NCBI RefSeq assembly: GCF_012163145.1 | Contig: NZ_JAAVTX010000012.1 | Coordinates: 1-51,122 of the forward strand | Length of the DNA stretch: 51,122 bases | From: Falsiroseomonas frigidaquae | GTDB taxonomy: Bacteria > Pseudomonadota > Alphaproteobacteria > Acetobacterales > Acetobacteraceae | Direction of reading: 5' to 3' | Shown: positions 2,237-50,408 of the stretch, in pieces | Layout of the letters: each line of letters opens with the position of its first letter | Position numbering within the stretch: the first letter of the stretch is position 1 | The notes under the pieces: generated by a model | What the model was told of the DNA's origin: nothing | What the model saw: only the letters and a program-made list of their open reading frames with translations | The model's database searches: none | Position numbers and translations under genes: made by a program

Positions 2237-3415
2237 ATGAGTGAATTTAATATTCCGGATGCCCTCGAGGTCCGTGAATTCGCCCCCGGTGCGCCGGTCA
2301 TCATTGCGTTTACATCGGTCAATTCGAACGGCTTCTCGTTCTACAAGAATCTGGAGAAACTCCCATTCTCCCGGATCTATGTAAGGGATCCGTTCGACTG
2401 CTGGTTCCAGCGCGGCATCGGAAGCGGCGTCGACTCTCCGGAGGCCCTGGTCGCGTATCTGGGCCGCGTGCTGGCGGAGCTGCGACCGCTGCGCCGCGTG
2501 ACCATGGGCTCCTCCATGGGGGGCTACGCGGCCCTGCTGTTCGGCCATCTGCTGCGCGTCGATGCCGTGTTTGCGATGTCGCCGCAGACCATCATCGATC
2601 GTCGCCTGCCACATACCCCGTCGGAGGACTTCTCCGATCGTCCGTATTTCGACCTGGCGCCGCTGCTCCGCATCAAGAACCGGCACAGGCCGGCCACCCA
2701 CATCCTGTTCGGGTCGGATGACATCGTCGATGTCTGGAACGCAACGCGTGTGGTGACGCTGCCGGGCGATGTGCAGTACCCGGTGGCCGGTCGCGACCAC
2801 CTGGCCTCCAATCTGATCGCGGGGAATGGCGATCTGGCCGTCGCGCTTTCGGGGCTTGCGCGGGACGAGGCCTTCACGCTTACGGCGGCGCTGGACCGGC
2901 GCTGCGAGGCGCCGCGCGTCAAGGCGATCCTGGATCGGTTGACCCGTGCCCTGTATCTGGCCGAGCCGGACCTGGCGCCTGAGGAATGGACGGAGCGGTT
3001 GCAGCGCCTGGAGCCTGACTGGGCCGTGCCGTACGATGTCGCCGCCATGCTGGCCACGCGCCGCGGCGACGTCGCGGCCGCGGAGGCTGCGGCGGGCAAG
3101 GCGGCCGAGCTCGCACCGCTTTCGATCACGCTGCAGACTTCGCACGCCCAGTTGTTGATGCGGCTGGGGCGCGAAGCGGAAGCGATAGCGGCATTCGAAC
3201 GATGCCTGAAGATCCGCCCGAAGCATTACGCGGCGCTCTGCGCGCTCGGAATATTGCGGGCGCGGGCGGGTGATTACGAGCGCGCCTTGGCGCATCTCGA
3301 TACGGCGATTGCCATCCGGCCGCGTCTGGCCAGGGGCAAATCATTGCGTGCCGCGGTTCTGGAAGGACGGGCCGTGGCCATCTCCAGTCTGGAAGAGCCG
3401 GGGGAGGACATGTAA
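2237..3415 (+). CDS. Alpha/beta hydrolase with C-terminal TPR repeats
   Basis: This 392-residue protein has two parts. Residues about 15-215 look like an alpha/beta hydrolase: a nucleophile elbow G91-S-S93-M-G, an acid candidate in the GSDD stretch near residue 160, and a catalytic-type His in the following RDH motif. Residues about 260-380 hold roughly three TPR units. No signal peptide is visible, so it is probably cytoplasmic. It opens the plus-strand glycan cluster, 46 bases before a GT25 gene. A role in removing or moving acyl groups on a sugar is inference from context. A related hydrolase without TPRs is at 21838-22704 and a degenerate one at 9106-10161. Confidence 0.75.
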   Translation: MSEFNIPDALEVREFAPGAPVIIAFTSVNSNGFSFYKNLEKLPFSRIYVRDPFDCWFQRGIGSGVDSPEALVAYLGRVLAELRPLRRVTMGSSMGGYAALLFGHLLRVDAVFAMSPQTIIDRRLPHTPSEDFSDRPYFDLAPLLRIKNRHRPATHILFGSDDIVDVWNATRVVTLPGDVQYPVAGRDHLASNLIAGNGDLAVALSGLARDEAFTLTAALDRRCEAPRVKAILDRLTRALYLAEPDLAPEEWTERLQRLEPDWAVPYDVAAMLATRRGDVAAAEAAAGKAAELAPLSITLQTSHAQLLMRLGREAEAIAAFERCLKIRPKHYAALCALGILRARAGDYERALAHLDTAIAIRPRLARGKSLRAAVLEGRAVAISSLEEPGEDM

Positions 3416-3460
3416 AAATGCCTACGCAATTTCGAGGCTCCACCAGGGGAGGGACGGTGA

Positions 3461-4204
3461 GTGGGAAGCGGCTTTCAGGTACTGACGATAAGCCTAGACA
3501 AGGATAGCGCGCGCTATCTTCCCATTTCCCAGGAGCTTGAGAAGCAGGGTATCGAACACAGGAGGGTGGAGGCCCTGAACGGACGGCACGTTCCGAATTT
3601 CCTGCTCAAGAAATTCAAGATGGGCCGAAATTATGCAAACGAATTTCCCGGAACGTTTGGTTGCTTCATGAGCCATGTCCGGGCGTGGGAAATAGTCGCG
3701 GATTCTGATTTCGAGCATACTCTGATTCTGGAGGATGACGTCGTACTATCTCCCCGGCTTGCGCATTTTGACGTCAATGCTACGCCGGACTCGTATGACA
3801 TAATATTCGTGAACAACCGCCTGTGTGCCCACCTGCGGGAAAAAGACAGTCCGAGCCAATTCTTTCCCTTCATGGAGGCGATCAGGAGGCGGCCGAACGG
3901 ACTCTCCAATCCTGGCGCGGATGGCTATTTCCTCAGCCGGAGCGGTTCCCGCAAGCTATTAAAAATGCTGGCGGATGGCCCGATCAGCAGGCATGTTGAC
4001 GCCTTCATCTGCATGAAGTCGATCAACCAGCTTGCGCTGGCGGACATTCGGGGGCCAAAGCCCATGGCGCTGCAACTGAAACACGCCGGACCTCCTGCGG
4101 TCGAGGGAGAAGAACTGGTGGCCTTCTGCTTTGCGCCCCACCTCGTCGCCGAGCGAATCGGCACGAAAAGTTCCCGTACCAGCATTGACCAGGAACTCGC
4201 CTGA
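3461..4204 (+). CDS. Glycosyltransferase family 25 (LPS biosynthesis type)
   Basis: This 247-residue protein matches the GT25 fold of LPS galactosyl/glucosyltransferases. It opens with a short beta strand and a DK-SARY stretch, has the CFMSHVRAW helix, and has the LEDD metal-binding motif near residue 90. The length is normal for the family. The start is GTG at 3461, preceded by a strong AGGGGAGGGA ribosome-binding site. Base composition is clearly lower in GC than its neighbours and codon use is less biased, which suggests separate acquisition. The acceptor and donor sugars cannot be told from sequence. It presumably acts at the cytoplasmic face on an LPS or capsule intermediate. Confidence 0.85.
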   Translation: MGSGFQVLTISLDKDSARYLPISQELEKQGIEHRRVEALNGRHVPNFLLKKFKMGRNYANEFPGTFGCFMSHVRAWEIVADSDFEHTLILEDDVVLSPRLAHFDVNATPDSYDIIFVNNRLCAHLREKDSPSQFFPFMEAIRRRPNGLSNPGADGYFLSRSGSRKLLKMLADGPISRHVDAFICMKSINQLALADIRGPKPMALQLKHAGPPAVEGEELVAFCFAPHLVAERIGTKSSRTSIDQELA

Positions 4205-6060: not shown

Positions 6061-6127
6061 GGCTGCCGGTTGAGCAAAAATATGCATACTCACTCCTTGC
6101 TTGCGCGCCGCACAGCTCTGCGCGATA

Positions 6128-6172
6128 AGCCGAGCGACGGACAGGGCAAAGACGCTCGGTTGCTTTTGTTTC
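6128..6172 (+). terminator. Intrinsic terminator / attenuator ahead of neuB
   Basis: CCGAGCG (6130-6136) pairs perfectly with CGCTCGG (6153-6159), and the stem can be extended by an A-T and a G-U pair. A T-rich run, TTGCTTTTGTTT, follows. It lies 68 bases after the beta-helix gene and about 30 bases before the neuB ribosome-binding site, so it may end the upstream transcript or act as a leader attenuator. Confidence 0.55.
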
Positions 6173-6211
6173 AAACTAAGAGCTTTTTTGTGCGGATGTC
6201 AGGAGGCAGAT

Positions 6212-7090
6212 ATGGCGAAGTTGATCGCGGAAATCGGCTGCAATCACAAGGGTAGTCTTGCCCTGGCCAAGGAGATGATTGGCGTTGCTGGCCGGATCTG
6301 TCAGGTGGACGCCGTCAAGTTTCAAAAGAGGAATAATGTCGAGCTCCTGAGCCCGACTCAGTATCATGCGCCGCATCCGGTGCCGTCGAACGCCTATGGC
6401 GAGACCTATGGTGCGCATCGCGAGGCCTTGGAATTTACCCCGGACCAGCACGCGGAACTGATGGAAGTCTGTGCGCGTGAGGGGGTTATCTACTCCACGT
6501 CTGTGTGGGACCTGACCTCCGCGAAGGAGATGGCGGCGCTGCGGCCGGCATTCCTGAAGATCCCGTCCGCGACCAACCTGCACTTCGAACTGCAGGAATG
6601 GCTCTGCGCCAACTACCCGGGCGAGCTGCACGTCTCGACTGGCATGACCTCGGCGGCCGAGGTTGAGTCCGTGGTCCGCTTCTATGAAGAGCGTGGCCGT
6701 GCCAAGGACGTGGTCCTGTATGTCTGCACCTCCGGCTATCCGGTGCCGTTCGAGGATCTGTGCCTGCTCGAGATCTCGCGCTTCAAGGAGCTGTATGGCT
6801 CGCGGGTGCGGGAGATCGGTTTCTCCGGCCACCACCTCGGCATTGCCGCCGATATCGCGGCGATGGCGCTGGGTGCCACGGTCATCGAGCGGCACTTCAC
6901 GCTGGACCGTACCTGGAAGGGCACGGACCACGCCGCCTCGCTGGAGCCCGACGGCATGCGCCGGCTCAAGCGCGACCTGGTCAACGTCAACAAGGCGCTG
7001 ACCTACAAGCGCACGGAAATCCTCGAGATCGAGGAAGCCACGCGGCGCAAGCTCAAGTGGGAACCCGCCAACCAGGTGGCCGCCCAGTAG
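6212..7090 (+). CDS. neuB: Nonulosonic acid (sialic acid-family) synthase, NeuB-like, without SAF domain
   Basis: The 292-residue TIM-barrel protein condenses phosphoenolpyruvate with a 6-carbon sugar to make a 9-carbon 2-keto acid. Family signatures are IAEIGCNHKG at residues 5-14, VKFQ at 35-38, CTSGYP at 172-177, GFSGHH around 203-208 and ERHFTLD at 226-232; H207 and H228 correspond to the NeuB metal ligands. The usual SDH motif reads SGH. The usual C-terminal SAF/antifreeze domain (about 60 residues), which in NeuB lies over the partner active site and contacts the N-acyl group, is absent. ATG 6212 is chosen for its AGGAGG site at 6201-6206. It precedes the NeuA-HAD gene. The substrate may be a mannose-type sugar rather than ManNAc (inference). 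Confidence 0.88.
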   Translation: MAKLIAEIGCNHKGSLALAKEMIGVAGRICQVDAVKFQKRNNVELLSPTQYHAPHPVPSNAYGETYGAHREALEFTPDQHAELMEVCAREGVIYSTSVWDLTSAKEMAALRPAFLKIPSATNLHFELQEWLCANYPGELHVSTGMTSAAEVESVVRFYEERGRAKDVVLYVCTSGYPVPFEDLCLLEISRFKELYGSRVREIGFSGHHLGIAADIAAMALGATVIERHFTLDRTWKGTDHAASLEPDGMRRLKRDLVNVNKALTYKRTEILEIEEATRRKLKWEPANQVAAQ

Positions 7091-7221: not shown

Positions 7222-8418
7222 GTGACCTCTTTGCGAGCTGTGGTCGTCATTCCGGCCCGAGGCGGATCAAAGGGCATCATCGGCAAGAATCTTCGACCCG
7301 TCGGCGGGCGCGCGTTGATCGTTCGGGCCGTCCAGGCCGCCCGGGCCGCCGCCTGTGTCGATCTGGTCCTAGTCTCCACCGATGATGCGGCAATCGGCGC
7401 GGCCGCGACCGCCGCCGGCGCGGTGCTCGTGGAGCGTCCCGCCGAGATATCCGGGGACCGTGCCTCCTCCGAAGCGGCGGTGCTGCACGCGCTTGATGTT
7501 CTCGAGGCCGGCGGCCGCGCGCTGCCGGATGTGGTGGTGCTGATGCAATGCACCTCGCCCTTCACCACGGGCCCGGACATCGATGCGCTGATCGCGGCGA
7601 TGGACGAAAGGAAGGCCGCCTGCGCGCTCTCCGTCGTGGAGGATCACGGCTTTCTCTGGGGCCTGGACGACCAGGGCTTCGGCGTCGGGGTGAACCACGA
7701 CCACACGGGGCGCCGCCGCATGCGCCAGGAACTGCCGCCCCAGTTCCGCGAGAATGGCGCCCTCTACGCCATGCGCGTCGCGCCGTTCCGGGCCAGCGGC
7801 AACAGGTTCTGTGGGCCGGCGGTGCCGGTGCCGATGGCGGCGCCCCACATCGAGATCGATGAGGAAGCCGACCTGCTGCTGTGCGACGCCATGGCCACGG
7901 TACTCGATCGCCCGAGGTTGCCGCCGCATGTGCGCATCCAGGTGGTGGTGACGGATTTCGACGGCGTCCACACCGATGATCGCGTGCTGGTGGACCAGGA
8001 TGGCCGCGAGGCGGTGTTCTGCAGCAGGTCCGACGGCATGGGCGTGGAGATGCTGCGCCGCGCGGGGTTCCAGGTGCTGATCCTGTCCAAGGAACGCAAC
8101 CCGGTGGTCACGGCGCGCGCGCGCAAGCTTCAGGTGCCTTGCCTCCAAGGGATCGAGGACAAGCTCGGCGCGCTGTCGGCCTGGCTCGCGGAGCGCAACC
8201 TGGGCTGGGATTCAGTCGCCTATCTCGGGAACGACATCAACGACGCCGCCTGCCTCAACGCGGCGGGGCTGGCCGTGGTGCCGGCGGATGCGCACCGGGC
8301 GGTTCGTGCCGGAGCGCTGGTCCTGAAGCAGAATGGAGGCCATGGCGCGATCCGTGCCTTGGCCGAGTTCTTGCTCGAGCATCGCCCGACGACACGTGCC
8401 GGCACGCAGGAGCATTGA
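7222..8418 (+). CDS. neuA: CMP-nonulosonate cytidylyltransferase fused to KdsC-like HAD phosphatase
   Basis: This 398-residue protein has two enzymes in line. Residues 5-230 are an acylneuraminate cytidylyltransferase with the PARGGSKGIIGKN CTP-binding motif (residues 11-23), which makes the CMP-sugar donor. Residues 238-385 are a HAD phosphatase of the KdsC/NeuA-C type: D245-F-D247-G-V, S289-K290, and GND338. The arrangement resembles animal CMAS and some bacterial proteins. Here the HAD part keeps its catalytic Asp pair and so may dephosphorylate a 9-phosphate (or Kdo-8-phosphate) before activation. The start is GTG 7222, and the stop overlaps the next ATG (TGATG). Confidence 0.88.
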   Translation: MTSLRAVVVIPARGGSKGIIGKNLRPVGGRALIVRAVQAARAAACVDLVLVSTDDAAIGAAATAAGAVLVERPAEISGDRASSEAAVLHALDVLEAGGRALPDVVVLMQCTSPFTTGPDIDALIAAMDERKAACALSVVEDHGFLWGLDDQGFGVGVNHDHTGRRRMRQELPPQFRENGALYAMRVAPFRASGNRFCGPAVPVPMAAPHIEIDEEADLLLCDAMATVLDRPRLPPHVRIQVVVTDFDGVHTDDRVLVDQDGREAVFCSRSDGMGVEMLRRAGFQVLILSKERNPVVTARARKLQVPCLQGIEDKLGALSAWLAERNLGWDSVAYLGNDINDAACLNAAGLAVVPADAHRAVRAGALVLKQNGGHGAIRALAEFLLEHRPTTRAGTQEH

Positions 8419-9092
8419 TGGTGATCACCCCAACCTTCGGAGGCGCAACATCGAAGGCCTTCTGCCCGTATTGCGGGGCCGGGGTGGTGACTGACATGCA
8501 GTGCGATGGATGCGGCTCGACAGTGGCGGACCGCATTCTCTGGGTCATGGTGACGGAGTTGAAGCTGTTGCAGGCCGGTGGCGCGGTGCTGCACCACATG
8601 CCGACCGCGGTATCCGCGCGGCGCTTCTACGCGCTGCTGGGCAGCAACTATCACCCGACCGTCGTGCCGGGGATGGCGGCGCCGACAGGCGAGTTACCGT
8701 TTCATGAATTCGAGCCGGCAGGGCAGGCGGAGGCTCTGGCACCGAACTCCTACGGCCTGATCATCATTGCGAATGGCCTGATGGATATCGGTGCGGCGGT
8801 TCCGGCGGTGTTGGAATCGCTGAGCCAGGCGCTGCGCCCTGGAGGTTCGCTGCTGTTCGGCGGCGACATCGTCGATGAGCAGGGAAGGGTCATCAGCGCG
8901 CCCCTCGCCGCCGCCGCATCGCCTGGCACGGAGACACCATCCTTTGCCAGCATCGTGCGGCGTCAATTCGGCCGTGAATGCCGCGTTCGCCTCGGTCAGC
9001 AGATCCGCGATCGCGTTGTCGAGGCGGCAGGCCTGAGTCCCAGCCAGTTGCGGCGCGTCACGCCGCAATCCTTGTTCTGGTATCAGTCGTAA
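8418..9092 (+). CDS. Zinc-ribbon plus methyltransferase-like protein
   Basis: The 224-residue protein starts with a CPYCG...CDGCG zinc-ribbon pair (near residues 17-35). A region resembling the C-terminal half of a class I SAM-dependent methyltransferase follows: a YGLIIIANGLMDI strand-helix, then ALRPGGSLLFGG. The glycine-rich SAM loop normally found earlier in such enzymes is not obvious, so activity is uncertain. It is translationally coupled to neuA through TGATG, which suggests a role with the nonulosonate, for example O-methylation of the sugar or glycan (inference). Confidence 0.6.
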   Translation: MVITPTFGGATSKAFCPYCGAGVVTDMQCDGCGSTVADRILWVMVTELKLLQAGGAVLHHMPTAVSARRFYALLGSNYHPTVVPGMAAPTGELPFHEFEPAGQAEALAPNSYGLIIIANGLMDIGAAVPAVLESLSQALRPGGSLLFGGDIVDEQGRVISAPLAAAASPGTETPSFASIVRRQFGRECRVRLGQQIRDRVVEAAGLSPSQLRRVTPQSLFWYQS

Positions 9093-9105: not shown

Positions 9106-10161
9106 ATGTCCTCGACCTCATCGAGCAGGAACACTGCGCCCCAATCGCCATTGTCGCGCAGCCTGGAAGCCGGCAGCGGCCGCAACCACAAGATCGTCGT
9201 GCGGCCCGGTGCGCGCAGCATCTTCGTCGCCTTTGGCACGGATGCGCCGAGTGGCAGCGAAACCCCCGGCCCCGCTTCGGTGGTTCGCTTCGACGATCCG
9301 GATGGCGCCTTCGGGAGAGGCGTTCCCGGATTTGTCGAGAGCCTCGACAGCCTGTTCTGCTGGCTGCGCGGGTTGGGCACGGAACTGCCTGTCTACCTGG
9401 TTGGCGAAGGCGCGGGAGCCTCCGTGGCGCTGCTGGCCAACATGCTGCTGCCCAAGTCCCGGCTGCTGGCCGTCGGCCCGCTCACGGTGCCTGAAAGCTT
9501 CATGGAGGCCGGCGCCCTGCGGCATCCCTTCTGGGGCCAGGTCGACCAGCTGGCGAGTGATTTCCCGGCCCAGCAGATGGGCGTCACGGCGCTCTGCTCC
9601 TGGGATCCGGCGGCGGCCGCCATGCTGGGGGGCGAACAGACGCTCAAGCCGGCCTACGGCACGATCGTCGAACTGCCCTGCCGCAGCAACGGCATTGCCT
9701 ATCTCCGCCGCAAGCGTGCGCTCGGCGTGTTGCTGGAACGCGGTGCCGACGCGCTGCGGACGCTGATCGACGAGAATGTGGTCTCGCTGCCCTACGCGCA
9801 CGGCAAGCCGCGCGAATATGCCGCATTCCACGAAGCGCATTCTGCGATGGGGCGCGGCCAGTCGGGACGAAAGCGCGCAATGCGCCTGGTCGAGGCGGAA
9901 GCCGGCTGGGCCAACCCTGGTTGGCAACACCTGCGCGCCACGGTGCTGCGCCGGGAGAATGCGGCGGCCGAGGCGCTGGAAGCCGCTCGCCTTGCGGCGC
10001 GGTCGGCGCCGGAGGTCGCGGAGTTCTGTGTCGGCTATGCGCGCCTCGTCCAGGAGAACAAGGCGGAGGACGATGTGGCCACCGCCGCCGCGATGCTGGA
10101 ACCTTTCCTGCGGCAGCGGGGCATTGCCGAACTCCGTGATAGCCTTACTGCGACCATATAA
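9106..10161 (+). CDS. Degenerate alpha/beta hydrolase-like protein with helical tail
   Basis: This protein has 351 residues. Around residue 102 a strand-turn-helix (YLVGEGAGASVALLA) looks like a nucleophile elbow, but the expected Ser of GxSxG is Gly (G-E-G-A-G), so the classical hydrolase reaction is unlikely. The C-terminal third (about 245-345) is helical and TPR-like. The plan matches the hydrolase-TPR protein at 2237-3415, so it is probably a diverged, non-catalytic paralogue, perhaps binding a glycan or a partner enzyme. The start is ATG 9106 with AAGGGA upstream, 13 bases after the preceding gene. Confidence 0.6.
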   Translation: MSSTSSSRNTAPQSPLSRSLEAGSGRNHKIVVRPGARSIFVAFGTDAPSGSETPGPASVVRFDDPDGAFGRGVPGFVESLDSLFCWLRGLGTELPVYLVGEGAGASVALLANMLLPKSRLLAVGPLTVPESFMEAGALRHPFWGQVDQLASDFPAQQMGVTALCSWDPAAAAMLGGEQTLKPAYGTIVELPCRSNGIAYLRRKRALGVLLERGADALRTLIDENVVSLPYAHGKPREYAAFHEAHSAMGRGQSGRKRAMRLVEAEAGWANPGWQHLRATVLRRENAAAEALEAARLAARSAPEVAEFCVGYARLVQENKAEDDVATAAAMLEPFLRQRGIAELRDSLTATI

Positions 10162-10209: not shown

Positions 10210-12291
10210 ATGTCGGCGAACTCTCCCGCTCCGTTGCCCTTGATCGTCCGCAGCGAAGCAGGAACCCTGCACATCGTTGCCGAGGCTGCGCCCGTCAAAG
10301 CGCCTGCAGCCGCGCCAAAGGCAGACGATCCGGGGGCGGAGTTCTTCCGCCGCCAACGAGACGAAGCGCGCCAGCAGCGAGAGGTTGCGCGGCAGCAGAG
10401 GGACGAGGTTCGCAAGCAGCGCGACGAACTGAAGTCTCGTATCGAGATGCTCGAGAGCCAGCTGGCTTCCGCGGCGCGCGGCGAGTCCGTGAAGGCGCCG
10501 CCGCCACGCGACATTGGTGAACTCGATGTCTTCGCGCTCGAAGCTGACCGCGCCGCACGGCTGCCCGACATCCGCAGCAAGCAGGCCCGGGGATTGCCGT
10601 TGGCGATCCGTGAGGCGGAGTTGCTGGGAGAGCGGTTGATCCCGCCCATGCGCCGCGCTGCGCGGCCGCGGCAGACGCCCGGTCCGGACATCGCCTTCCT
10701 GACCGTGGCGAATGCAAAGTTCCTGCCGGGGCTCGAAGGGCTGATCTTGTCCTTGCTGCGGGTCTATCCCGACCTGACCAGCCCCATCCACATCTGCCAT
10801 GACGGCACGCTGAACAGCTTCGTGCAGACACGGCTGCGAAGCTTCTACGCGAACCTGATTTTCCTTGAGCCGAACATGGATTGGTTCGAGCAGGTTCCTG
10901 CCATGTCCGACAATCACAAGCGGATCGGCAAGCTTGGCTACATGAACATGGAAGGCCTGGCACTCACGGGTTTCAAGCGTGTGATCCTGCTGGATTCCGA
11001 TATCCTGATCCTCGATGACCTGTCCGAGCTTTGGGACGGCGACGACTACAACATCTGCTACGATTGCGGCGACCGTGAATATGTCGCCCGTTCCGCCTTC
11101 ACCGGCGACTGGGTCTTCAACAGCGGGGTCATCAGCATTCCCGGGGATCGCACCGGCCCTCAGGCCTATGCCGAATTTCGTGATGCGGTCCTGGCCCATG
11201 CCTCGGCCGAAGTCTGCCCGGCCATTGATCGATTTTCGGATCAGAAGATCTGGAACATCTATCTGCGCGACAAACCCAAGCGCTACCTGCCATTGAATTA
11301 CAATTGCAACGTCAAATACCTGGCCAAATTCCTCAATGGCCAGCCGGACGGCATCTCGGTCATTCATTTTGCCGGGCCAAAGCCCTGGAACAGCCGGCTT
11401 TACGTCGCGGCGGACCATCTTCAGCCGAGCGCCTCAAAGGCGCTGCAATTTCCAAAGCCCTGGGTCGACGCCTACCGGGACATGATGTTCCATACCCGGG
11501 TCGAATCCTATCGCGACCATGCCAAGGCTCATCGCCGCGCCGTGCCCGTACGCCTCGACTCCACCGTGGAAGGGCGCCGCACCTGCGTGATGATTGGCAA
11601 CGGCCCCTCCATGGCACAAACGGACCTGACGCTGGTTGAGGGGCTGGAGAAATTCGCCTTCAACTGGTTCGTGCTGCACGAGGGCTTCGACGTGGTGCGG
11701 CCTGACCATCTGGTCCTGGGCTCGCACATGCTGTTCGGTGGCTGGTCGACCACGGAGCCGTGCTTTCCCGCGGGCTACCTGGACAAACTGCGCGCGCACA
11801 AGCATCGCCCGGCCCTCTGGACCTCCTTCTATTTCCGCGAGTATCTCGAATCCATCAATCTCCACCAGGAATTCGAGATTAACTACGGGCTGTTCGAGAA
11901 GCCGTTCAAGCGCTTCATCGACCGCGTCGGCCGCTTCAATGCCGATATCGACACTTTCCTGGACGATGGCCGCACCGGAGTCATCAGCCTGGCAATTCCA
12001 GCTGCGGTGAAGCTCGGCTTCGAGCGCATCCTGCTGGTCGGTTGCGATTCCAACTACAATCAGGCCGGGACCACCTCGAAATATTTCTACGATATGTCAC
12101 AGCATACATCCGCGGAAACCAGGGAGGACAGCCTGACCTCGACCTGGACCGAGGAGGGGCGTGGACAGTTTGTTTATAAGCTGGTCACGGAAGAACTCAC
12201 CGCGCGTGGGATCGAGTTCATCGACTGCACCGTGGGCGGTGCGCTGCAGACCGTCCCCAAGGGGAAATTGCAGGATTATTCCACGACCTGA
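10210..12291 (+). CDS. Coiled coil - GT8 glycosyltransferase - DUF115-like fusion
   Basis: This 693-residue protein has three parts. Residues about 45-90 form an Arg/Gln/Glu-rich coiled coil. Residues about 158-400 form a GT8-type glycosyltransferase with the metal-binding D262-S-D264 motif and a late HFAGPKPW motif typical of GT8 enzymes. Residues about 455-690 resemble DUF115/Maf proteins, with IGNGPS at 462-467 and GCDSNYN further on; that family is linked to nonulosonate transfer onto flagellin and to sialic acid loci. A single chain may therefore add a hexose and bind or transfer a CMP-sugar. The start is ATG 10210 with AAGGAC upstream, in a markedly AT-rich 48-base spacer that may hold a promoter. 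Confidence 0.78.
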   Translation: MSANSPAPLPLIVRSEAGTLHIVAEAAPVKAPAAAPKADDPGAEFFRRQRDEARQQREVARQQRDEVRKQRDELKSRIEMLESQLASAARGESVKAPPPRDIGELDVFALEADRAARLPDIRSKQARGLPLAIREAELLGERLIPPMRRAARPRQTPGPDIAFLTVANAKFLPGLEGLILSLLRVYPDLTSPIHICHDGTLNSFVQTRLRSFYANLIFLEPNMDWFEQVPAMSDNHKRIGKLGYMNMEGLALTGFKRVILLDSDILILDDLSELWDGDDYNICYDCGDREYVARSAFTGDWVFNSGVISIPGDRTGPQAYAEFRDAVLAHASAEVCPAIDRFSDQKIWNIYLRDKPKRYLPLNYNCNVKYLAKFLNGQPDGISVIHFAGPKPWNSRLYVAADHLQPSASKALQFPKPWVDAYRDMMFHTRVESYRDHAKAHRRAVPVRLDSTVEGRRTCVMIGNGPSMAQTDLTLVEGLEKFAFNWFVLHEGFDVVRPDHLVLGSHMLFGGWSTTEPCFPAGYLDKLRAHKHRPALWTSFYFREYLESINLHQEFEINYGLFEKPFKRFIDRVGRFNADIDTFLDDGRTGVISLAIPAAVKLGFERILLVGCDSNYNQAGTTSKYFYDMSQHTSAETREDSLTSTWTEEGRGQFVYKLVTEELTARGIEFIDCTVGGALQTVPKGKLQDYSTT

Positions 12292-14219: not shown

Positions 14220-14249
14220 ATATCCGCAGGCAGCAGGCAAGAATTGCGC

Positions 14250-32864: not shown

Positions 32865-32932
32865 TTCCACACGAGCATGATGCCGCCCGCCGCGCTGCAC
32901 AGGCGGCGATCCCGGCGATGGCCTGGCAGCAC

Positions 32933-32962
32933 GCTATCGGAAGGCAATCTGGTAGCTACCAG
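32933..32962 (+). repeat. 30-bp repeat, left copy, with 14-bp palindrome (par site candidate)
   Basis: This copy matches 34055-34084 at 27 of 30 bases, in the same orientation. Its right half is the perfect palindrome CTGGTAGCTACCAG (32949-32962), and a further half-site ACTACCAG follows at 32967-32974. It lies directly upstream of parA, next to a promoter-like TTGACT, as a centromere or operator would. Confidence 0.8.
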
Positions 32963-32992
32963 TTGACTACCAGATAGCTTTCTGGCGACTAT
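32963..32992 (+). promoter_or_regulatory. Candidate parA promoter
   Basis: TTGACT (32963-32968) and GACTAT (32987-32992) are spaced by 18 bases. The -35 box abuts the CTGGTAGCTACCAG palindrome, so a protein bound there could repress the par operon. The boxes are imperfect. Confidence 0.4.
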
Positions 32993-33024
32993 CGGCTTGC
33001 AACTGGATAGCGAGCCATCGGCCG

Positions 33025-40304: not shown

Positions 40305-40458
40305 ATCGGCAGGCCGTCGCTCCAGGCCGTGGCATATCTGGACTACAACGTCGTTGGCGCGCTTCGAGGATCTGCGAACAGGCCGGGCAGGCGATCGGTG
40401 CCCGATGGCCTGATGATCGGTCGCCAGGTGCGAAAGCGGGAAAGGGATGCGGCACGTC

Positions 40459-41357: not shown

Positions 41358-41741
41358 TCATGACCGCCCGTAGACGTCTTCCAGGCGGATGATGTCGTCC
41401 TCGCTCAGATAGGCGCCGGTCTGTACCTCGATCAGGATGAGGGGAACCTGCCCCTTGTTCTCCAGCCGGTGGACGCAGCCCAGCGGCAGGAAGATCGCCT
41501 CGTTCTCCTTCAGCTCGATCAGCTCCTCGTCGCGGGTCACGAGGGCGTTGCCGCCCACCACGACCCAGTGCTCCGACCTGTGCTCGTGCTTCTGGAGGCT
41601 GAGCTTCTGTCCGGGCAGCACGATGATGCGCTTCAGGACATAGCCGTCCCCGCAGGCCAGCAGCTCCCAGCTACCCCAGGGGCGCTCGCCGTGCTCCCCG
41701 ACCGTGTAGGTTGTCGATTTCCGCGTGGGGTTCTGGTCCAT
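41358..41741 (-). CDS. Type II mannose-6-phosphate isomerase-like cupin
   Basis: The 127-residue protein equals the C-terminal isomerase domain of ManC/AlgA-type enzymes, without the GDP-mannose pyrophosphorylase part: ERPWGSWELL near residue 18, then QKLSLQKHEHRSEHWVVVGG (cupin metal ligands H52, H54, E58) and LPLGCVHRLEN (H92). It may interconvert fructose-6-phosphate and mannose-6-phosphate and so feed mannose-based sugars. Standalone forms occur in many polysaccharide loci. It may be linked to the nonulosonate precursor (inference). Confidence 0.85.
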   Translation of the reverse strand: MDQNPTRKSTTYTVGEHGERPWGSWELLACGDGYVLKRIIVLPGQKLSLQKHEHRSEHWVVVGGNALVTRDEELIELKENEAIFLPLGCVHRLENKGQVPLILIEVQTGAYLSEDDIIRLEDVYGRS

Positions 41742-43666: not shown

Positions 43667-45622
43667 TCAGAACCCCAGCTGCCGCAGCTCCGCCTGCAGG
43701 CGCTCGGCACAGGCCTGCGGGTGGCGGGTCGCGCGCAGCGTTTCCAGCCCAACATCCTCGGGCTGTGCAAGCTCCCGCAGCCAGCCCTGCAGGTCGTCCG
43801 CCGCTTCGTCCGCCCCGGATTCCAGGGCCAGTTGCGCGGCGATCATGCGATCCAGCCGGTCCTCGCCATTGCTGCCGCGGCCCCGCCACAGCGCTGGCTC
43901 GCGTGCCGGTGCAATGGGCAGCATCTGGGCGCGGAGCAGGGCCGCGGTCAGCGCCGCATCCGGCGGCGGCAGCATCGCCAGCGGGTGCGTCCGCAGCGAA
44001 ATCGTTCCAGGCCCGGCAGGCTCCTCGCCGGCGACCACATCCTGCAGCACCAAGTCCTGCAGCATCGGACCCCGGCCGGTTGCGGATGGCTGCTGTCCCG
44101 GCTGCTGCAACCGGTGGCGCAGCGGCTGCTCGGCGGCGTCCAGACCGTCCGGGAGGGGCGCTTCCAGCACCTCCAGCCCATGGCCGCGCAGCCGCCGGAA
44201 CAGCGCCGCGGGCGCGGCCGGATCCAGCACCACCACGGGCCGGTGGTCGAGCAGCGCCCAGACCACGGCGCGGCGCAGCAGGATCTCCCCCAGCGTCTGC
44301 CAGGCCAGGCCGAGACCGGGGCCGAGACCGGTGGCGGCCGAGAGCTCCACCAGGCGCTGCGGGCGGCGGCGAGGCCGGACCGGGCGGAAGGCGGCCCCGA
44401 AGGCGGGGCTCACCGCCGGCGGCCCGCGGTCCTTGGGATGCCGATAGGGAGCCACGGCCCGCACCGCCGGATCGAGCAGGCCGACCAAGCCCCGCGCCAG
44501 CAGCGCCACCGCCAGCTCGCTCCAGATCGAGCCGGGGCGGCCTTCCTGCCATGCGCCGCAATCCTGCAGCGCAGCCAGCAGCACCTGTGCCGGAAAGGCG
44601 ACCACGCCGGGGCTGCCGATCTCCGCCACCAGCAGGTCGAACTCGGGCGGCGGCCGTATCGCCGCGATCCCATCGGCCTCCCCGTCGCCCACCATGCGAT
44701 AGCCGCCACCCACCACCATGCCATCCGGCATCGTCGTCACCGCCACGGCGAAGCCGGCGCAGGCATTGGCGCGCAGCGTTGCCGCCAGGCGTACGGCCTG
44801 CGCCGGCGGCAGGGTGGTGCCGCTTTCCTGCAGCAGCAGATAGGCCTGCGGATGATCCTGCGCGGCCCGGGCCAGCAAGGCGCCGAGTTCGGCATCCTGC
44901 CCCGCCAATGCTGGCGGCAAGGCCACCGGGACCAGGTCCGGGGGCAGCTCGATGTCTTCGGCCGCGGTATCGCCTGCCTCAGCCTGCTGCGGGGTGTGCA
45001 GCCGGCCGACCACGGTGGCGCCGCCGGTCTTGTCGTGGCCGCCGCCAAGCCGGACCGGCGACCCGTCGAGCGGCGCGCCATTGGCCATCAGCCGGACCAC
45101 GACCTCCTCATCATCGTGCAACGCGCTGCCGAGGATGCAGAAGGCAAAGCCTTGGTGGCCATCGCCGACGCCGAGTTGCTTGAGGTCGGCGCGGTAGATG
45201 TCGGCGCGCGCCAGGGCGACGATCCGGCCTTCGACCTCGAGGCCGACCTGCACGCGCTGCCGCGGCTTCCGCCAATCCACCGCCCAGCCCCGCACCGTCA
45301 CCTGGCCCCGCAGCCGCTCGACATGGTCGATGAAGCCGACCAGCGTGCCGAAGGAGACCCAGAAGCCGATCGGCAAAGGGCAGGGCGAGGACAGCTTCGC
45401 ACCGTCGGCACCCACGAACTCCGCCGTGGTGTCGCCCTGGGCGATCAGTTCCTCGGGCAGGGTGAACGCGGCCCCGCTGGGCCCGGCCGGGGTCCAGGGC
45501 AGCGGGGTGCCCCCTACCTTCAGCACGGCCCCGCGCGGCAGCGGCGCCGGCGCGATGCTGAGCGTGACCCGCTGCAGCCAGCGCTTCTCGATGACGGTCG
45601 TCGGCAACACCGTTTCGCTCAT
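43667..45622 (-). CDS. Glycan-locus protein with beta-sandwich domain, function unknown
   Basis: ATG 45622 with AGAAGGG ahead gives 651 residues; an in-frame extension to 45748 is not supported. Residues about 80-185 form a domain common in multi-domain glycosyltransferases of this group (RGQVTVRGWAVDW..., ARADIYRADLKQLGVGDGHQGFAF). The remainder (about 210-640) is Ala/Leu/Pro-rich and not recognisable, although a stretch near 490-530 (RRAVVWALLDHRPVVVLDP) resembles half of a Rossmann fold. It is last in the operon and overlaps the GT42 gene by ATGA. Confidence 0.6.
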   Translation of the reverse strand: MSETVLPTTVIEKRWLQRVTLSIAPAPLPRGAVLKVGGTPLPWTPAGPSGAAFTLPEELIAQGDTTAEFVGADGAKLSSPCPLPIGFWVSFGTLVGFIDHVERLRGQVTVRGWAVDWRKPRQRVQVGLEVEGRIVALARADIYRADLKQLGVGDGHQGFAFCILGSALHDDEEVVVRLMANGAPLDGSPVRLGGGHDKTGGATVVGRLHTPQQAEAGDTAAEDIELPPDLVPVALPPALAGQDAELGALLARAAQDHPQAYLLLQESGTTLPPAQAVRLAATLRANACAGFAVAVTTMPDGMVVGGGYRMVGDGEADGIAAIRPPPEFDLLVAEIGSPGVVAFPAQVLLAALQDCGAWQEGRPGSIWSELAVALLARGLVGLLDPAVRAVAPYRHPKDRGPPAVSPAFGAAFRPVRPRRRPQRLVELSAATGLGPGLGLAWQTLGEILLRRAVVWALLDHRPVVVLDPAAPAALFRRLRGHGLEVLEAPLPDGLDAAEQPLRHRLQQPGQQPSATGRGPMLQDLVLQDVVAGEEPAGPGTISLRTHPLAMLPPPDAALTAALLRAQMLPIAPAREPALWRGRGSNGEDRLDRMIAAQLALESGADEAADDLQGWLRELAQPEDVGLETLRATRHPQACAERLQAELRQLGF

Positions 45623-48516
45623 GGAGCCCTTCTGATCTGCACCGGGCCGAATAGTCGCCTTCGTCCCATCGCGCCGCGGAGCAGACTCAGGGTGAAGGTG
45701 CAGGATCGTCCCGCCAGCCCCTTGGGCATGGGAAAGTCGGCCGCCCATTCGCTGCCCGGCGGAAGGTCCGCCAGCAGCGGCAGCGTATGGCGGACCAGGG
45801 TGGTGCCCTGCTCGTTGCTGTGGCCAGGCTCGTTGCTGTGGAACGCCACGTCGAGATGCGTGGCGCCACGCCCGGAACGCCCGGCCCGTACCCAGGCATG
45901 CGGACTGCGGTTGAACAGGCGCAGCGTGACCGTGCTGCCCTCGCCCGACGTGCCGAGGTAGGCGCGGATCTCGAGATCCGCTGCATCGTCCTCGGTTGGG
46001 CTGGCTGCCGCCAGGCTGTCCTGCCCGGTCAGGAAGGCCGCCGCCGCATGCCGCGGCACATCCGCGATCGCGGCGAGCAGCGCGGCCGTGCTGCCTTCGG
46101 TCGCCGGCGCCTGCAGCGCGCCCGCTTCGCCATGGCCGGCCAGCGCCGCGGCCAGTGCCGCGTCCAGCCCCAGCACCGGCGGCGCCGTCCCCTGCGCCGC
46201 GAAGCCGGCCGGCTGGGCCAGCAGCAGCGGCAGGTCCAGCGCCGCGGCATGCGACAGCGCCGGCGGAAAGCCGGAGGCGGACCCCATCAGGATGCCGGCA
46301 TCGAGCGCCGCCATCACCTCGGCCGAGGGGTTCGCCACCGGCACCGCATCGGTTGACGCAATGCCGGCCGCCTCCGCCTCGGCAGGCCCCGCCTGCCCAC
46401 CCAGGGGCAGCACCAGCAGGTCGAGACGCTGGCGCGCCTCGGCCGGCAAGGCCCAGACCGCATCGGCCACCAGGTCGAGCGTGGCGCGGTCGGCTTCGGC
46501 GACCAGCAGGCCGATACTGCGCCGACCATCCGGGCGCGCGGGTCGCGGGTAGATGGCCCGCCAGGTCGCCGGCGGCGCTTCGGCAACCCGCAGCGGCAGC
46601 CCCGGCAGCGCCGCCCGCAACGCATCGGCGACCCCGAGGTCGGTGGCGATCGCGGTGCCGCCGGCGGCACCCAGCCGGTGCAGCAGATCGCGCGCCCGCG
46701 CGCCGCCGGCCGGCCAGCAGGGCACCGAGACGAAGACCTGCTTCTCCCCGGCGCGGGCCATGGCGAGCAGCCGCGGCATCAGCATCTCCCCGGCCTGCAG
46801 CAGCTCGGGCAGCCCGATCAGCAGTGCCGCACCGCCCGGCGTCTCGCCCAGCATGTCGAGCAGCCCGATGCCGACCGAAAGCGGCAGCCGCTGGGCCGCC
46901 GGCACACGGTCGAGCAAACCGCCAAAGCCATCGCGGGGATGGCCCTCACCGAGGATGAACAGGGTCGTCTGCAGCATGAGGGCGGCCTTGATCTGGTCCT
47001 GCGCCGGGACCGGCAGGCCAATCAACATCCCTTCCGCCGCCATTGCCAGCAAGTCGCCCAGGCGCGGGCCGATCTCCTGCGCCAGCGCCGCAAGGGCCGC
47101 CGGGGTCAGCGCGCCTGGGGCGGGCTGCCAGCGGATCGGCACGCCCGGGAAGCTGTGCCGCAGCGCCGCCACCTGCCCGGCCAGGTCAGGCCGCGCCGGG
47201 CGCAGCATCCGTGTCGGGCCATCCTTGATGTCGCAACGAAGTCGTCCCTCGCCATCCGGCATCGCCACCACGTCGCCCGATGCCTCAGCCGATGCCGGGG
47301 CCGCCGGATCTGTGACCAGCCGGATCTCGCGCGGGTCGGGCCGCGGCCAGCGCAGCGCCTCGCGCGGGTCGAGCGGGCTGCCATGCAGCGGCAGACCGCT
47401 GGTCACGTCGGTGAACCGCCAGGGCGGCGGGCCAACCCGTTCGGCCAGCCAGGCCAAGTCGAGGATCCGCCCATGCCGGCCATCGCCGAGGCAGGCGAGC
47501 TCCAGCTCATGCACCTTCTGGTCCGGCCGCAACCGCTCCCGCAGCCCCGACGCGCCTTCGATCAGGACGCTGCGCCAGGCCGTCGGCTGTTCCGGCCGCC
47601 AGGCCCAGAGCAGCGCCCGGCGCGCATCGAGCTGGGCCACGCCACCCGCCAGGCCTGCCGCTTCGGCCTCGGGTTGGGGGGCGGCCGGCACCGGCCCGAA
47701 GGGCGCGCCGCACAGCATCCGCAGACGCGATTCGAAGCCCGCCGGGACCGGACCCGCCGAGGCCGCAGCCCGGGCGGAGACCGGCGCCAGCGGCAGCAGC
47801 CGCGCCGTGTAGGAACTCGGGCTGAGGCAGCTGATCCGCGCCAGCGGAAAGGCCACCCGCAACGCCGTCAGGAAGCCGAGGTCGGTCTCCAGCCCATGCT
47901 GCGCCGCCTCGTAGCCGCCCGAGAGATGCACGGGCGCCGTCATGTCGCGGATGAAGTCCGGCACGGCGTGCACATAGCGCTGATCGGCCTGGTATAGGTC
48001 CATCCCGGCGATGCGGATGTCGCGGAAGCCGAAGGCGAGCATGGTCGCCACCGCCTGCAGACCCTGGGTCGGCAGCATGGGCCGCACCCGTTCACGCGGC
48101 GCGGCCAGGAAGCCGGCGATGATCGGCTCGGCGCGCAGCAGGTCGAAATGCGACATGCGCGGCTGCAGCAGGCGCGCCAGCTCCGCCGCCTCCGCCCGGA
48201 AGGGCGGCAGGGTTTCGCGCGCCACCCCGACCGGGGTGAAGAAAGTGCCGAAATCATAGGCCTGCTCGGCGATCGCCGCCTGGAAGCCCAGTTGCAGCCA
48301 GCGCCGCGCCACCGCCCAGAAGATGCCATCGACCCGGCTGCCGTAGCGGCGCGTATCCTCGAAGAAGAAGGCGTTGGTGCGGACGATCACCGCCTCCTCC
48401 GGCACCGCGCCGGCCGGCAGGTCAGCGGCCGAGGGGCCGTTGCCCACCACCACGACCGGCCGCCCGAGGCGTGCCGCCTCCGACCAGGCCGCCGCACCGC
48501 GCAAGGGCTCGATCAT
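45619..48516 (-). CDS. GT42 sialyltransferase (Cst-II-like) fused to a large unknown C-terminal region
   Basis: This 965-residue protein has an N-terminal domain (about 20-250) that follows family GT42 (Campylobacter Cst-I/II) throughout: VVVVGNGPS at 21-29, the RTNAFFFED block at 46-54, an R-x5-PTQGLQAV segment near 145-155, IRIAGMDLYQ at 168-176, H207 in QHGLETDLGFL at the position of the Cst-II catalytic His188, and SCLSPSSY. Such enzymes move sialic acid from CMP-sialate. Residues 260-870 are unrecognised; about 520-760 look Rossmann-like. A beta-rich end (about 875-955) resembles a carbohydrate-binding sandwich. Both ends overlap neighbours by ATGA. Confidence 0.85.
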   Translation of the reverse strand: MIEPLRGAAAWSEAARLGRPVVVVGNGPSAADLPAGAVPEEAVIVRTNAFFFEDTRRYGSRVDGIFWAVARRWLQLGFQAAIAEQAYDFGTFFTPVGVARETLPPFRAEAAELARLLQPRMSHFDLLRAEPIIAGFLAAPRERVRPMLPTQGLQAVATMLAFGFRDIRIAGMDLYQADQRYVHAVPDFIRDMTAPVHLSGGYEAAQHGLETDLGFLTALRVAFPLARISCLSPSSYTARLLPLAPVSARAAASAGPVPAGFESRLRMLCGAPFGPVPAAPQPEAEAAGLAGGVAQLDARRALLWAWRPEQPTAWRSVLIEGASGLRERLRPDQKVHELELACLGDGRHGRILDLAWLAERVGPPPWRFTDVTSGLPLHGSPLDPREALRWPRPDPREIRLVTDPAAPASAEASGDVVAMPDGEGRLRCDIKDGPTRMLRPARPDLAGQVAALRHSFPGVPIRWQPAPGALTPAALAALAQEIGPRLGDLLAMAAEGMLIGLPVPAQDQIKAALMLQTTLFILGEGHPRDGFGGLLDRVPAAQRLPLSVGIGLLDMLGETPGGAALLIGLPELLQAGEMLMPRLLAMARAGEKQVFVSVPCWPAGGARARDLLHRLGAAGGTAIATDLGVADALRAALPGLPLRVAEAPPATWRAIYPRPARPDGRRSIGLLVAEADRATLDLVADAVWALPAEARQRLDLLVLPLGGQAGPAEAEAAGIASTDAVPVANPSAEVMAALDAGILMGSASGFPPALSHAAALDLPLLLAQPAGFAAQGTAPPVLGLDAALAAALAGHGEAGALQAPATEGSTAALLAAIADVPRHAAAAFLTGQDSLAAASPTEDDAADLEIRAYLGTSGEGSTVTLRLFNRSPHAWVRAGRSGRGATHLDVAFHSNEPGHSNEQGTTLVRHTLPLLADLPPGSEWAADFPMPKGLAGRSCTFTLSLLRGAMGRRRLFGPVQIRRAP

Positions 48517-50408
48517 GCGGCGACGGGGACCGGCTGGCCCGAGGCGCCAGCCATCAGCGCGGCCAGCACCCGCTGCGCCAGGCCGGTCGGGGAGGCCAGG
48601 TCCAGCCCCCGCGCGGCGATCGCGCCGGCATCGGCGGGCCGGGCCAGCGCTGCCTGCAGCGCCGCCAGAGCGGCCTCCGGCGTGTAATCGGCGAAGACGC
48701 CGCAGCCCGGCAGGCCGGCCACCGCCTCGGCCGCGCCGGTCCCGGCATAGGCGACCACCCGCTTGCCGAGCGCCAGCGCCTCGATCACCGACAGCGGCAT
48801 CGGATCATCGGCCGAGGACAGCAGCAGCAAATCCATCGCCGCCAGCTCCGCGGCCAGTGCCGCCCCTTCCATCCGTCCGGCCCAGCGCACGGCCGGGCTG
48901 GGCGGCGGCAGGCCGGGTTCCTGCACGTCATGGCCGATCCAGCTGAAATCCCATGGCAGCGCCAGCGCCGCCGCCCGTTCCGCCACGGCGCCGAACAGGG
49001 CAGGGCCCTTGCGCGCCTGCACGGTGCCCAGCATCGCGATCGCAATCCGCGCACCGGCTGGGGCCGGCGGCGGCGCCTCGGCCGGGCGCGGCACCTCCGT
49101 CGCATTGCCGACCACGACGCAGCGCGTGGCGCCATACTGCCCGGCCAGCAGCCGCGCCTGGGCGGCGGAGACGCAGAGCAGCAGCGCCGTCGGCAGGCGT
49201 TCGGCAAAGCCCTGCCACAGATCCGGCGCCGTCTGCCGGAACCGCTCCAGCGTCCAGGCGGTTTCATGCAGGTAGATGGCGCGCCGTGCCGGCGCGATGG
49301 CGTCATAGACCCGCAGCGCCGCCTCGCCGCGCTCGAACATGCCGGCCGAGTTGAACAGCACTGCGGCCTCCGGCGGGATGGCGCGCAGCACTGGCCGGGG
49401 GTCCGACTCCGGGCCGATCGGCAGGCAGCGCACCGGCACGCCGGCGGCGCGCAGCACCTCCGCCATGCGCAGCGCGGGGCGGGCCAGGCCGGTACGCTCG
49501 GACCAGTCATGCGAGACGATGACGAGGCCGCCACGCGGCACCGCCAGCCCCTCCAGCCGCAGGGGGGCAGGGGCCGGGCCAGCGGCTGGCACTCCGCAGG
49601 GGCGGCCCACCGCCTCGATGCCCGCCAATACCAGCTGGGCCAGCAGCCGCGCCAAGGGCTCGCCCCCGGCGAGCGGCAGCAGCCGCGCCGGAGATGCGGC
49701 GGGCGTATCCCGGTCCGTCGCCAGCCGGGCGAGCAGCGCCGCGGCCCGGACCGGCCCATCGGCAATGGCCAGCCCTTGCGCCACATCGTCCGCCCCATGC
49801 CCGGGCGCGAGCAGCAGCGTCTTCCATCCCAGCCGCAGCGCCTCGGCCGCATCGGCCGGGCGGGTCGTCAGTAGGATCGGCGGCCCGCTTGCCTCGATGC
49901 CCGGCGGCAGGTCGAGGCCCAGGGTCTGCAGGCCGGGATCGGGCACCACCTCGCCCGGCCGCGCCGGCTGGCGCAGCCGCGACCAGGCCCAGGCCCCCAC
50001 GCCCGGCTGGCCGATCGCCACGCGCCGCGGCGCCGCCAGACCGGTCTTGCCGGCCACGGAAGCGGCATCCGCCGGGCTTGCAAGCACCAGCAGGTCCGGC
50101 GCGCTGGCGCCCCAGGGCGGCGCCTGGGTGACGTCACGCGAAGCCAGGCCGAAGACGTTGCGCGGCAGCCCGGCCGTGGCCTGCGCCAGCACCACGGGCA
50201 GACCGGCGCCGCGCGCCTCGGCGATGCGCGCGCGCGAGATGGCGCCGCGGTCGTCGAACAGGATCAGCCCGGCAACCGGCTCGGCCGCTGCGGCTTCCCC
50301 CAGATGCAGGAAGGCGGGCGCATCGGGCGGCAGCAGCGCCTCGGCCGCGGCGATCACCGCGGCGGCGTCCCGCGCCAGGACCGCCCAGGGCAGCGGCGCG
50401 GCTACCAT
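48513..50408 (-). CDS. GT4-type glycosyltransferase with long N-terminal extension
   Basis: The 631-residue protein has a recognisable GT-B C-terminal half: LVIVSHDWSERTGLARPALRMAEVL near 295-320 (N-terminal Rossmann start), VVVGNATEVPRP near 435-446, IAMLGTVQARKGP near 462-475, and DPMPLSVIEALALGKRVVAY near 540-560, the E-x7-E donor-binding block of GT4. Residues 1-290 are Ala-rich and unrecognised. It overlaps the GT29 fusion gene by seven bases upstream and the GT42 gene by four downstream, so these enzymes are made together. Sugar unknown. Confidence 0.8.
   Translation of the reverse strand: MVAAPLPWAVLARDAAAVIAAAEALLPPDAPAFLHLGEAAAAEPVAGLILFDDRGAISRARIAEARGAGLPVVLAQATAGLPRNVFGLASRDVTQAPPWGASAPDLLVLASPADAASVAGKTGLAAPRRVAIGQPGVGAWAWSRLRQPARPGEVVPDPGLQTLGLDLPPGIEASGPPILLTTRPADAAEALRLGWKTLLLAPGHGADDVAQGLAIADGPVRAAALLARLATDRDTPAASPARLLPLAGGEPLARLLAQLVLAGIEAVGRPCGVPAAGPAPAPLRLEGLAVPRGGLVIVSHDWSERTGLARPALRMAEVLRAAGVPVRCLPIGPESDPRPVLRAIPPEAAVLFNSAGMFERGEAALRVYDAIAPARRAIYLHETAWTLERFRQTAPDLWQGFAERLPTALLLCVSAAQARLLAGQYGATRCVVVGNATEVPRPAEAPPPAPAGARIAIAMLGTVQARKGPALFGAVAERAAALALPWDFSWIGHDVQEPGLPPPSPAVRWAGRMEGAALAAELAAMDLLLLSSADDPMPLSVIEALALGKRVVAYAGTGAAEAVAGLPGCGVFADYTPEAALAALQAALARPADAGAIAARGLDLASPTGLAQRVLAALMAGASGQPVPVAA

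Follow-up and report, generated by a model that had tools for sequence, protein, structure and literature searches.

A small circular plasmid of Falsiroseomonas frigidaquae with predicted genes for two activated ulosonic acids and proteins of families GT29 and GT42

The plasmid and its counterpart in Roseomonas oleicola

Contig NZ_JAAVTX010000012.1 of Falsiroseomonas frigidaquae (assembly GCF_012163145.1) is analysed here over its full length of 51,122 bp, referred to as the window. It is a complete contig (C3) of a genome of 6.08 Mb in 19 contigs. Besides replication and partition genes it carries two proteins of glycosyltransferase (GT) family 29, GT29a and GT29b, one protein of family GT42, the donor genes NeuB and NeuA-HAD, and a kdsA-kdsB-kdsD set for CMP-Kdo (cytidine monophosphate-3-deoxy-D-manno-oct-2-ulosonic acid). 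The window ends overlap by exactly 101 bp and removal of the overlap leaves a circle of 51,021 bp. The backbone includes a RepA_C replication protein (23329..24270, + strand; PF04796, 90 bits) with 61% identity to the RepA of an Azospirillum argentinense plasmid, together with a tyrosine recombinase and a ParA/VirC1-like partition ATPase (31767..33714, +; Pfam). The presence of RepA_C and of a ParA/VirC1-type ATPase leads us to read the contig as a plasmid. The Pfam scan covered 46 distinct open reading frames (ORFs) of the window. Relaxase and type IV secretion system (T4SS) families, the marks of a mobilizable plasmid, have no match among them. Rfam and tRNA scans of the window were empty. 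The G+C content is 0.677 for the window and 0.698-0.755 in five samples of other contigs, two of them from one 112-kb contig. Within the plasmid it ranges from 0.61 to 0.75 (nonulosonate core, 0.64; accessory glycan genes, 0.61; backbone, 0.70; GT29a-GT42 operon, 0.75), and these differences between blocks suggest a composite origin.

A scan of named genomes for GT29a gave 155 candidate stretches and one relative, in Roseomonas oleicola; since it used two short patterns, other carriers of the locus may be missed. Contig NZ_JAERQM010000015.1 of R. oleicola ROY-5-3 carries the GT29a domain at 91% identity and is taken to be the contig of genome G231 in our sample. This contig (G231:C7) has 33,966 bp; its ends overlap by 91 bp, and the circle closes at 33,875 bp. 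The two circles share NeuB (90% identity), NeuA-HAD (90%), GT29a (89%), ParA (89%), the GT8 protein at 40447 (87%), the GT4, GT42 and GT8-MptE proteins (86% each) and KdsABD (73-84%). The remaining common genes are 77-82% identical, apart from the gene at 42081 (48%) and RepA (49%). GT29b, the GT25, GSCFA and DUF6716 proteins, the first pyruvyl transferase, the DUF1501/DUF1800 pair, the two-component pair and the PIN gene have no match on the G231 circle. The plasmid thus consists of a conserved core and of additional genes, GT29b being one of them, that amount to a net 17 kb; comparison with the smaller circle tells the two parts apart.

GT29 and GT42 proteins

The gene of GT29a spans the joint of the circle on the minus strand. 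Its amino-terminal part (1..2095) has no Pfam match and its carboxyl terminus (50402..51122) forms the catalytic domain, which scores 54.0 bits with PF00777 and shows the motifs L, S and VS (the last as H-x4-E). Once the overlap is removed the gene is a single frame of 904 amino acids, and it is uninterrupted in G231 at the point where the window is cut. GT29b is a 584-amino-acid protein (19982..21736, -) scoring 35.5 bits with PF00777, or 38.6 for the domain alone. Both proteins exceed the curated cut-off of 23 bits, with matches confined to a stretch of 45-58 residues that surrounds motif L. Their mutual identity, 22% or 27% depending on the alignment, shows that they are not recent duplicates. 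Motifs L, S and VS, the last with His-x4-Glu, can be recognised in both proteins when 9 or 12 sequences are aligned, as can the T/S-G and L-motif columns. A profile built from nine bacterial GT29 domains, among them the two of the window and a 91% identical orthologue of one, retrieves eight PDB sequences at E<=0.1 (best E-value 3e-17), every one of which bears the name of a sialyltransferase. In the GT29 tree the position of GT29b is not settled (support 36/44). As relatives of animal sialyltransferases, which are unusual in bacteria, GT29a and GT29b would be candidates for transfer from a CMP-ulosonate donor.

The accessible part of PMC5811610, from which the motif names L, S and VS are taken, reports 23 bacterial GT29 sequences, naming Alteromonas, Idiomarina and Loktanella. 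These sialyltransferase-like proteins of 2018 have the three motifs in common with those of the window, which differ by their long amino-terminal parts (584- and 904-amino-acid proteins), by occurring as two per plasmid and by lying on the same circle as NeuB/NeuA-HAD and kdsABD. A literature search by titles and abstract beginnings, with most subscription journals outside its coverage, returned no tested activity of a bacterial GT29.

The GT42 domain forms residues 1-265 of a 965-amino-acid protein (45619..48516, -) whose remainder has no Pfam match. PF06002 gives 28.1 bits for the whole protein and 33.3 for residues 1-265, with a cut-off of 25. The best phmmer match in PDB is an alpha-2,3-/2,8-sialyltransferase (2.3e-9, two stretches covering both halves), which we take to be CstII. 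Sialyltransferases make up nine of the ten PDB sequences listed at E<=1, the tenth being an inhibitor that matches another part. Like Campylobacter CstII and CST-I the domain has a GNGPS motif, and the Tyr and His of their catalytic region have aligned counterparts in it; unlike those enzymes, it heads a protein of 965 amino acids. The gene lies downstream of a GT4-type glycosyltransferase (48513..50408, -; PF13692, 38.7 bits), the GT42 start codon overlapping the GT4 stop, and is followed by a conserved protein without Pfam family (43667..45748, -; 81% identical in G231). The order GT29a-GT4-GT42-43667 is the same in G231.

The original prediction placed two GT29 proteins and one GT42 protein on one circle of about 51 kb, and both the Pfam scores and the 101-bp overlap bear this out, as do the PDB matches to sialyltransferases for the family placement. 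The NeuB, the NeuA-HAD fusion, the Kdo set and two pyruvyl transferases that it listed were likewise all recovered by profile search. Its description of GT29 and GT42 as unrelated disagrees with the literature, which treats GT42 as a phylogenetically related outgroup of GT29 (PMC5811610) and states that a resemblance of GT29 enzymes to the CstII fold had been predicted, though the solved structures are classed as a second GT-A variant (PMC8433944). In our profile comparison no significant sequence link joins GT29 to GT42 (probability 4%), and a comparison of GT42 with the MptE-like family was not significant either.

Genes for two ulosonate donors

NeuB (6101..7090, +; PF03102, 215 bits) aligns to residues 22-284 of the 349-residue SiaC and ends before its carboxyl-terminal part, presumably the SAF domain. 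Its scores lie below the equivalog cut-offs for N-acetylneuraminic acid (Neu5Ac) synthase (188.8 versus 399.65 bits) and for pseudaminic acid synthase (133.2 versus 340.25), so that no substrate is assigned. It is encoded on the plasmid only, in the window's genome as in G231. The next gene (7222..8418, +) codes for a CMP-nonulosonate synthetase fused to a HAD phosphatase. Its amino terminus (NeuA, 69.5 bits) matches CMP-Neu5Ac synthetases. The HAD part matches the putative HAD hydrolase 3mmz (142 bits), 3ewi, named N-acylneuraminate cytidylyltransferase (89), 3e81 (84), which we take to be the Bacteroides Kdn-9-P phosphatase, and the probable YrbI-family phosphatase 3mn1 (84); PDB entries named KdsC or Kdo-8-P phosphatase reach at most 60 bits. 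The HAD part stays below the NCBIfam cut-offs. The best phosphatase model there is KDN-9-phosphate phosphatase (96.3 bits, cut-off 180), and for this reason Kdn (2-keto-3-deoxy-D-glycero-D-galacto-nononic acid) is our preferred candidate for the product of NeuB and NeuA-HAD. A PF02350 epimerase, present in one copy in all five genus genomes sampled, does not decide between Kdn and Neu5Ac because two of these genomes have no NeuB match.

The set kdsA-kdsB-kdsD (27695..30344, +) codes for Kdo-8-P synthase, CMP-Kdo synthetase and a KpsF/GutQ-type isomerase, assigned with equivalog and subfamily models. KdsA (427.7 bits, cut-off 242) and KdsB (395.4, cut-off 281) exceed their equivalog cut-offs; KdsD is above the KpsF/GutQ subfamily cut-off and below the KdsD equivalog one. 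Each of the five genus genomes, the window's own included, has exactly one KdsA match, and in the window's genome and in G231 that sole match is the plasmid copy. KdtA and LpxC are on other contigs in all five (G231 has one additional KdtA-family match, below cut-off); the KdtA contig of the window's genome is at least 470 kb long. Kdo is a sugar normally required for the outer membrane. With the sole kdsA on the plasmid and KdtA and LpxC elsewhere, Kdo for the whole cell probably comes from the circle. Plasmid replication genes combined with a core gene without a match elsewhere, a feature of chromid-like plasmids, are found in both plasmid-bearing genomes (RepA, ParA and the sole kdsA match).

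No KdsC family member scores above cut-off in any of the five genus genomes, the window's own included, and its absence from the plasmid is therefore uninformative. The presence of kdsA in all five implies a Kdo-8-P phosphatase, a role in which some other protein must act. A tblastn search with the window's RepA and ParA on the kdsABD contigs of the three other genomes, over 85 of 85 kb in G195, about 129 of 134 kb in G152 and about 91 of 109 kb in G095, found nothing, other replicon types being undetectable in this way. KdsABD of the two plasmids (78% identical) are less conserved than the glycan enzymes (86-90%) and resemble in this the other shared genes (77-82%); their orientation relative to ParA differs between the window (27695-30344) and G231:C7 (29244-31806).

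Plasmid-borne kdsA is found in 89 plasmid records at E<=1e-30; Cereibacter, Roseovarius, Thalassovita, Palleronia and Pseudosulfitobacter are carriers of plasmid kds genes. The comparison covers plasmid records for those hosts; the window's genome has no kdsA match besides its plasmid copy. Among the titles and abstract beginnings covered, nothing on this locus appeared in the literature about kdsA on plasmids, about sialic acid or Kdo in Roseomonas or about fusions of a synthetase with a phosphatase, and the available part of PMC3789786 has nothing on kdsA.

Occurrence of GT29 and of a related plasmid module

Among the genomes sampled, PF00777 has a match in 8 of 249 for the family and in 2 of 385 for the class, and both counts include the window's own genome. 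The original prediction called the joint presence of GT29 and GT42 on a bacterial plasmid unusual; GT29 proteins as such were already on record for bacteria in 2018. In a plasmid collection neither GT29a nor the GT29 domain of another genus genome had a match; GT29b had one. A CMP-ulosonate synthetase lies within about 17 kb of GT29 in five of nine further GT29-bearing genomes or records. In G231 it is on the same circle. On contig C57 of G195 (L015), GT29 sits between kdsD and kdsA/kdsB, in a genome without NeuB match; in that neighbourhood one ORF exceeds the pyruvyl transferase cut-off and a second stays below it. A Pseudosulfitobacter plasmid carries GT29 14-17 kb from kdsA/B/D. In G095, of the same genus, GT29 is fused to an amino-terminal CTP_transf_3 (NeuA-like) domain (L016:8400-10229 and L017:9287-11212); the same genome shows a further GT29 match, its third, which is short. 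In G087, GT29 is directly preceded by an ORF that is 76% identical to the G095 NeuA-like domain and scores 12.3 bits with Pfam when read from a later start codon. These contexts point to both Kdo and nonulosonate donors.

PF06002 had no match in the 249 family genomes and missed the window's own copy too, which makes that search uninformative and led us to use the GT42 domain sequence itself as query. It identified the own genome only among 120 genomes, and the own genome and G231 among nine GT29-bearing ones. Single-protein scans of viral contigs with GT29b and with the GT42 domain found no relative.

Relatives of NeuA-HAD occur on 43 plasmid records, 11 of them with coverage of at least 80%. 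Each of six such stretches that were read has NeuA-HAD together with a DUF6716 match; GT42 is matched in five (in one over just 46 residues), a close NeuB (62-66% identity) is present in four, and none has a GT29 match. Five of them, in Marinovum algicola pMaD10, Tritonibacter mobilis p4, a 31-kb plasmid of Pseudorhodobacter turbinis, Sinorhizobium meliloti ml28 pSymB and Maritalea myrionectae pHL2708Y3, contain the module NeuA-HAD-GT42-DUF6716. As in the window, all five hold NeuA-HAD (46-55% identical), GT42 and DUF6716, and three hold NeuB (62-66%, 303-312 amino acids as annotated). They differ from the window in having no GT29 match within the stretches read and in showing, for the kds genes, weak and short KdsB-type matches in two cases. 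GT42 is 261-273 amino acids long in four of the five module annotations, whereas in the window it is the first quarter of a 965-amino-acid protein. In the sixth stretch, of Ensifer adhaerens, the GT42 match is about 29 kb away by coordinates. NeuB/NeuA-HAD/GT42/DUF6716 of the window hence belong to an existing plasmid module to which GT29 is an addition. This recurrence of NeuA-HAD and GT42 on other alphaproteobacterial plasmids had been missed by the original prediction.

Proposed role and alternatives

We favor, as reasonably probable, the interpretation that this is a stably kept Roseomonas-type plasmid making and using two activated ulosonic acids. KdsD, KdsA, KdsB and a further phosphatase would lead to CMP-Kdo. 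NeuB and NeuA-HAD would lead through phosphorylated intermediates to a CMP-nonulosonic acid, the simplest candidate being Kdn formed from mannose-6-phosphate. GT29a and GT42, with GT29b in this strain, would attach these acids to a glycan of the cell surface that the GT4, GT8 and GT25 proteins build and to which the pyruvyl transferases may add further charge. No other kdsA was found in the genome, and the plasmid would therefore also serve the Kdo transferase KdtA, whose gene is on a different, large contig; this probably makes the plasmid indispensable to the cell. The sole kdsA on the plasmid is the most surprising fact of this analysis and the donor of GT29 its most testable question: since GT29 shares one circle with most genes for two possible donors and is fused to a domain resembling CMP-ulosonate synthetases in another genus genome, donor and product are directly testable. 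A circle of 34-51 kb with the sole kdsA would show clearly how an envelope gene can bind a cell to a small plasmid.

Several observations weigh against this interpretation. The circularity rests on assembly overlaps, and at 97.9% genome completeness a second kdsA could be unsequenced. Flippase, polymerase and ABC exporter families have no match in the ORFs scanned, so that export would be provided from elsewhere or the acceptor would not be an exported polymer. The HAD part scores nearly as high with KdsC models (89.1 and 86.4 bits) and with the YrbI-family phosphatase as with the KDN-9-phosphate phosphatase model. Four of the nine GT29 loci show no synthetase in the stretch read (G161; G190, a 6.3-kb contig; G225; G341), although a weak synthetase match lies about 22 kb from GT29 in G225. 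Finally, the plasmid kds genes share 78% identity with each other, no more than with those of the other three genomes (78-80%), and a tree built from six sources, with one long branch for the outgroup, does not pair them; they may thus have reached the plasmid in more than one event.

A different assignment of donors has a real, if minor, chance of being right: the GT29 proteins would be CMP-Kdo transferases and GT42 alone would use the CMP-nonulosonate. A shift to Kdo transfer has been proposed for plant GT29 (PMC5811610, accessible part). The G195 arrangement in a genome without NeuB match, the Pseudosulfitobacter plasmid, the presence of kdsABD on both circles and the occurrence of GT42 near NeuA-HAD without GT29 match on other plasmids all agree with it. 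The G095 fusion to a NeuA-like domain and, in spite of its low Pfam score, the related ORF of G087 speak for a nonulosonate donor instead, and the tree groups GT29a and GT29b with neither context type.

A more far-reaching proposal, which we hold to be rather unlikely as a whole, is that of an essential 'ulosonate plasmid' in which the Kdo supply for lipopolysaccharide and the GT29/GT42 glycan genes moved together as a kit that is hard to lose, its GT29 proteins being bacterial, possibly Kdo- or Kdn-using, members of the ancestral stock of eukaryotic sialyltransferases. A bacterial origin of eukaryotic GT29 is proposed in PMC5811610.

Unlikely as well is a kit for cytoplasmic, Maf-like glycosylation of a protein such as flagellin in place of a polysaccharide. 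The lack of exporter families among the ORFs scanned and the putative MptE-like domain would fit it. So would the resemblance of the Maf_flag10 domain to CstII and the ability of a Clostridium botulinum Maf to use Neu5Ac and Kdo (PMC11339370, accessible part), and in Tritonibacter p4 the module lies near a gene annotated as flagellin modification protein FlmD. Yet the MptE-like match does not reach its cut-off, flagellin and flagellar families are unmatched in the ORFs scanned, and the S. meliloti module adjoins genes annotated as capsular polysaccharide biosynthesis protein and ABC permease.

The original prediction saw in the locus a transferable kit for a heavily anionic surface glycan, perhaps mimicking sialylation. 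From it a plasmid-borne set for an anionic glycan with ulosonates remains as well supported, and the replication and partition genes and the sialyltransferase-type enzymes go in its direction. The transferable character is not supported: relaxase and T4SS families are unmatched in the 46 ORFs scanned, and the sole kdsA match is on the circle. Plasmid genes are 86-90% (glycan enzymes) or 48-87% (other shared genes) identical between the two species; three genes from elsewhere in the genomes give similar values (LpxC, 91%; epimerase, 80%; KdtA, about 74%; all on other contigs), so that recent transfer need not be invoked. Mimicry of host sialylation is unsupported, and we consider this scenario very improbable. 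It is hardly credible that a chromosomal region was read as a circle by an assembly artefact, short and assembler-like as the 101- and 91-bp overlaps are, given RepA and ParA, GT29a intact in the other genome across the window's joint, and two assemblies that each close on this gene set.

Other genes of the plasmid

The core also includes a protein with carboxyl-terminal tetratricopeptide repeats (2237..3415, +; Pfam) and an amino terminus that is hydrolase-like by inspection alone, two conserved proteins, one below cut-off with weak zinc-ribbon and methyltransferase matches (8421..9092, +) and one with no family above cut-off (9106..10161, +), and a GT8 glycosyltransferase (40447..41325, +). 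The protein of 10210..12291 (+) had been described as a DUF115 fusion; its GT8 domain is above cut-off, and the DUF115/MptE-like part remains putative, with 22.4 bits for a cut-off of 34.6 and no meaningful PDB match. The accessory proteins are a GT25-type glycosyltransferase (3461..4204, +; PF01755, 69 bits), a GSCFA protein (12359..13393, +; PF08885, 188 bits), the DUF6716 putative glycosyltransferase of the recurrent module (14244..16220, +; PF20471, 232 bits) and a polysaccharide pyruvyl transferase (16290..17537, -; PF04230, 61 bits). The second pyruvyl transferase is the carboxyl-terminal domain of a fusion with GT8 (17610..19982, -), whose GT8 part alone is weakly matched on the G231 circle. 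A stand-alone mannose-6-phosphate isomerase carboxyl-terminal cupin is encoded at 41358..41741 (-; PF01050, 147 bits).

Three further gene pairs were noted. The DUF1501/DUF1800 genes (24632-27288, -) adjoin repA, a sigma-54-type response regulator and a histidine kinase are found at 34141-36944 (-), and a PIN-domain protein lies beside a weak MazE-like ORF (39891-40304, +), possibly forming a toxin-antitoxin pair.

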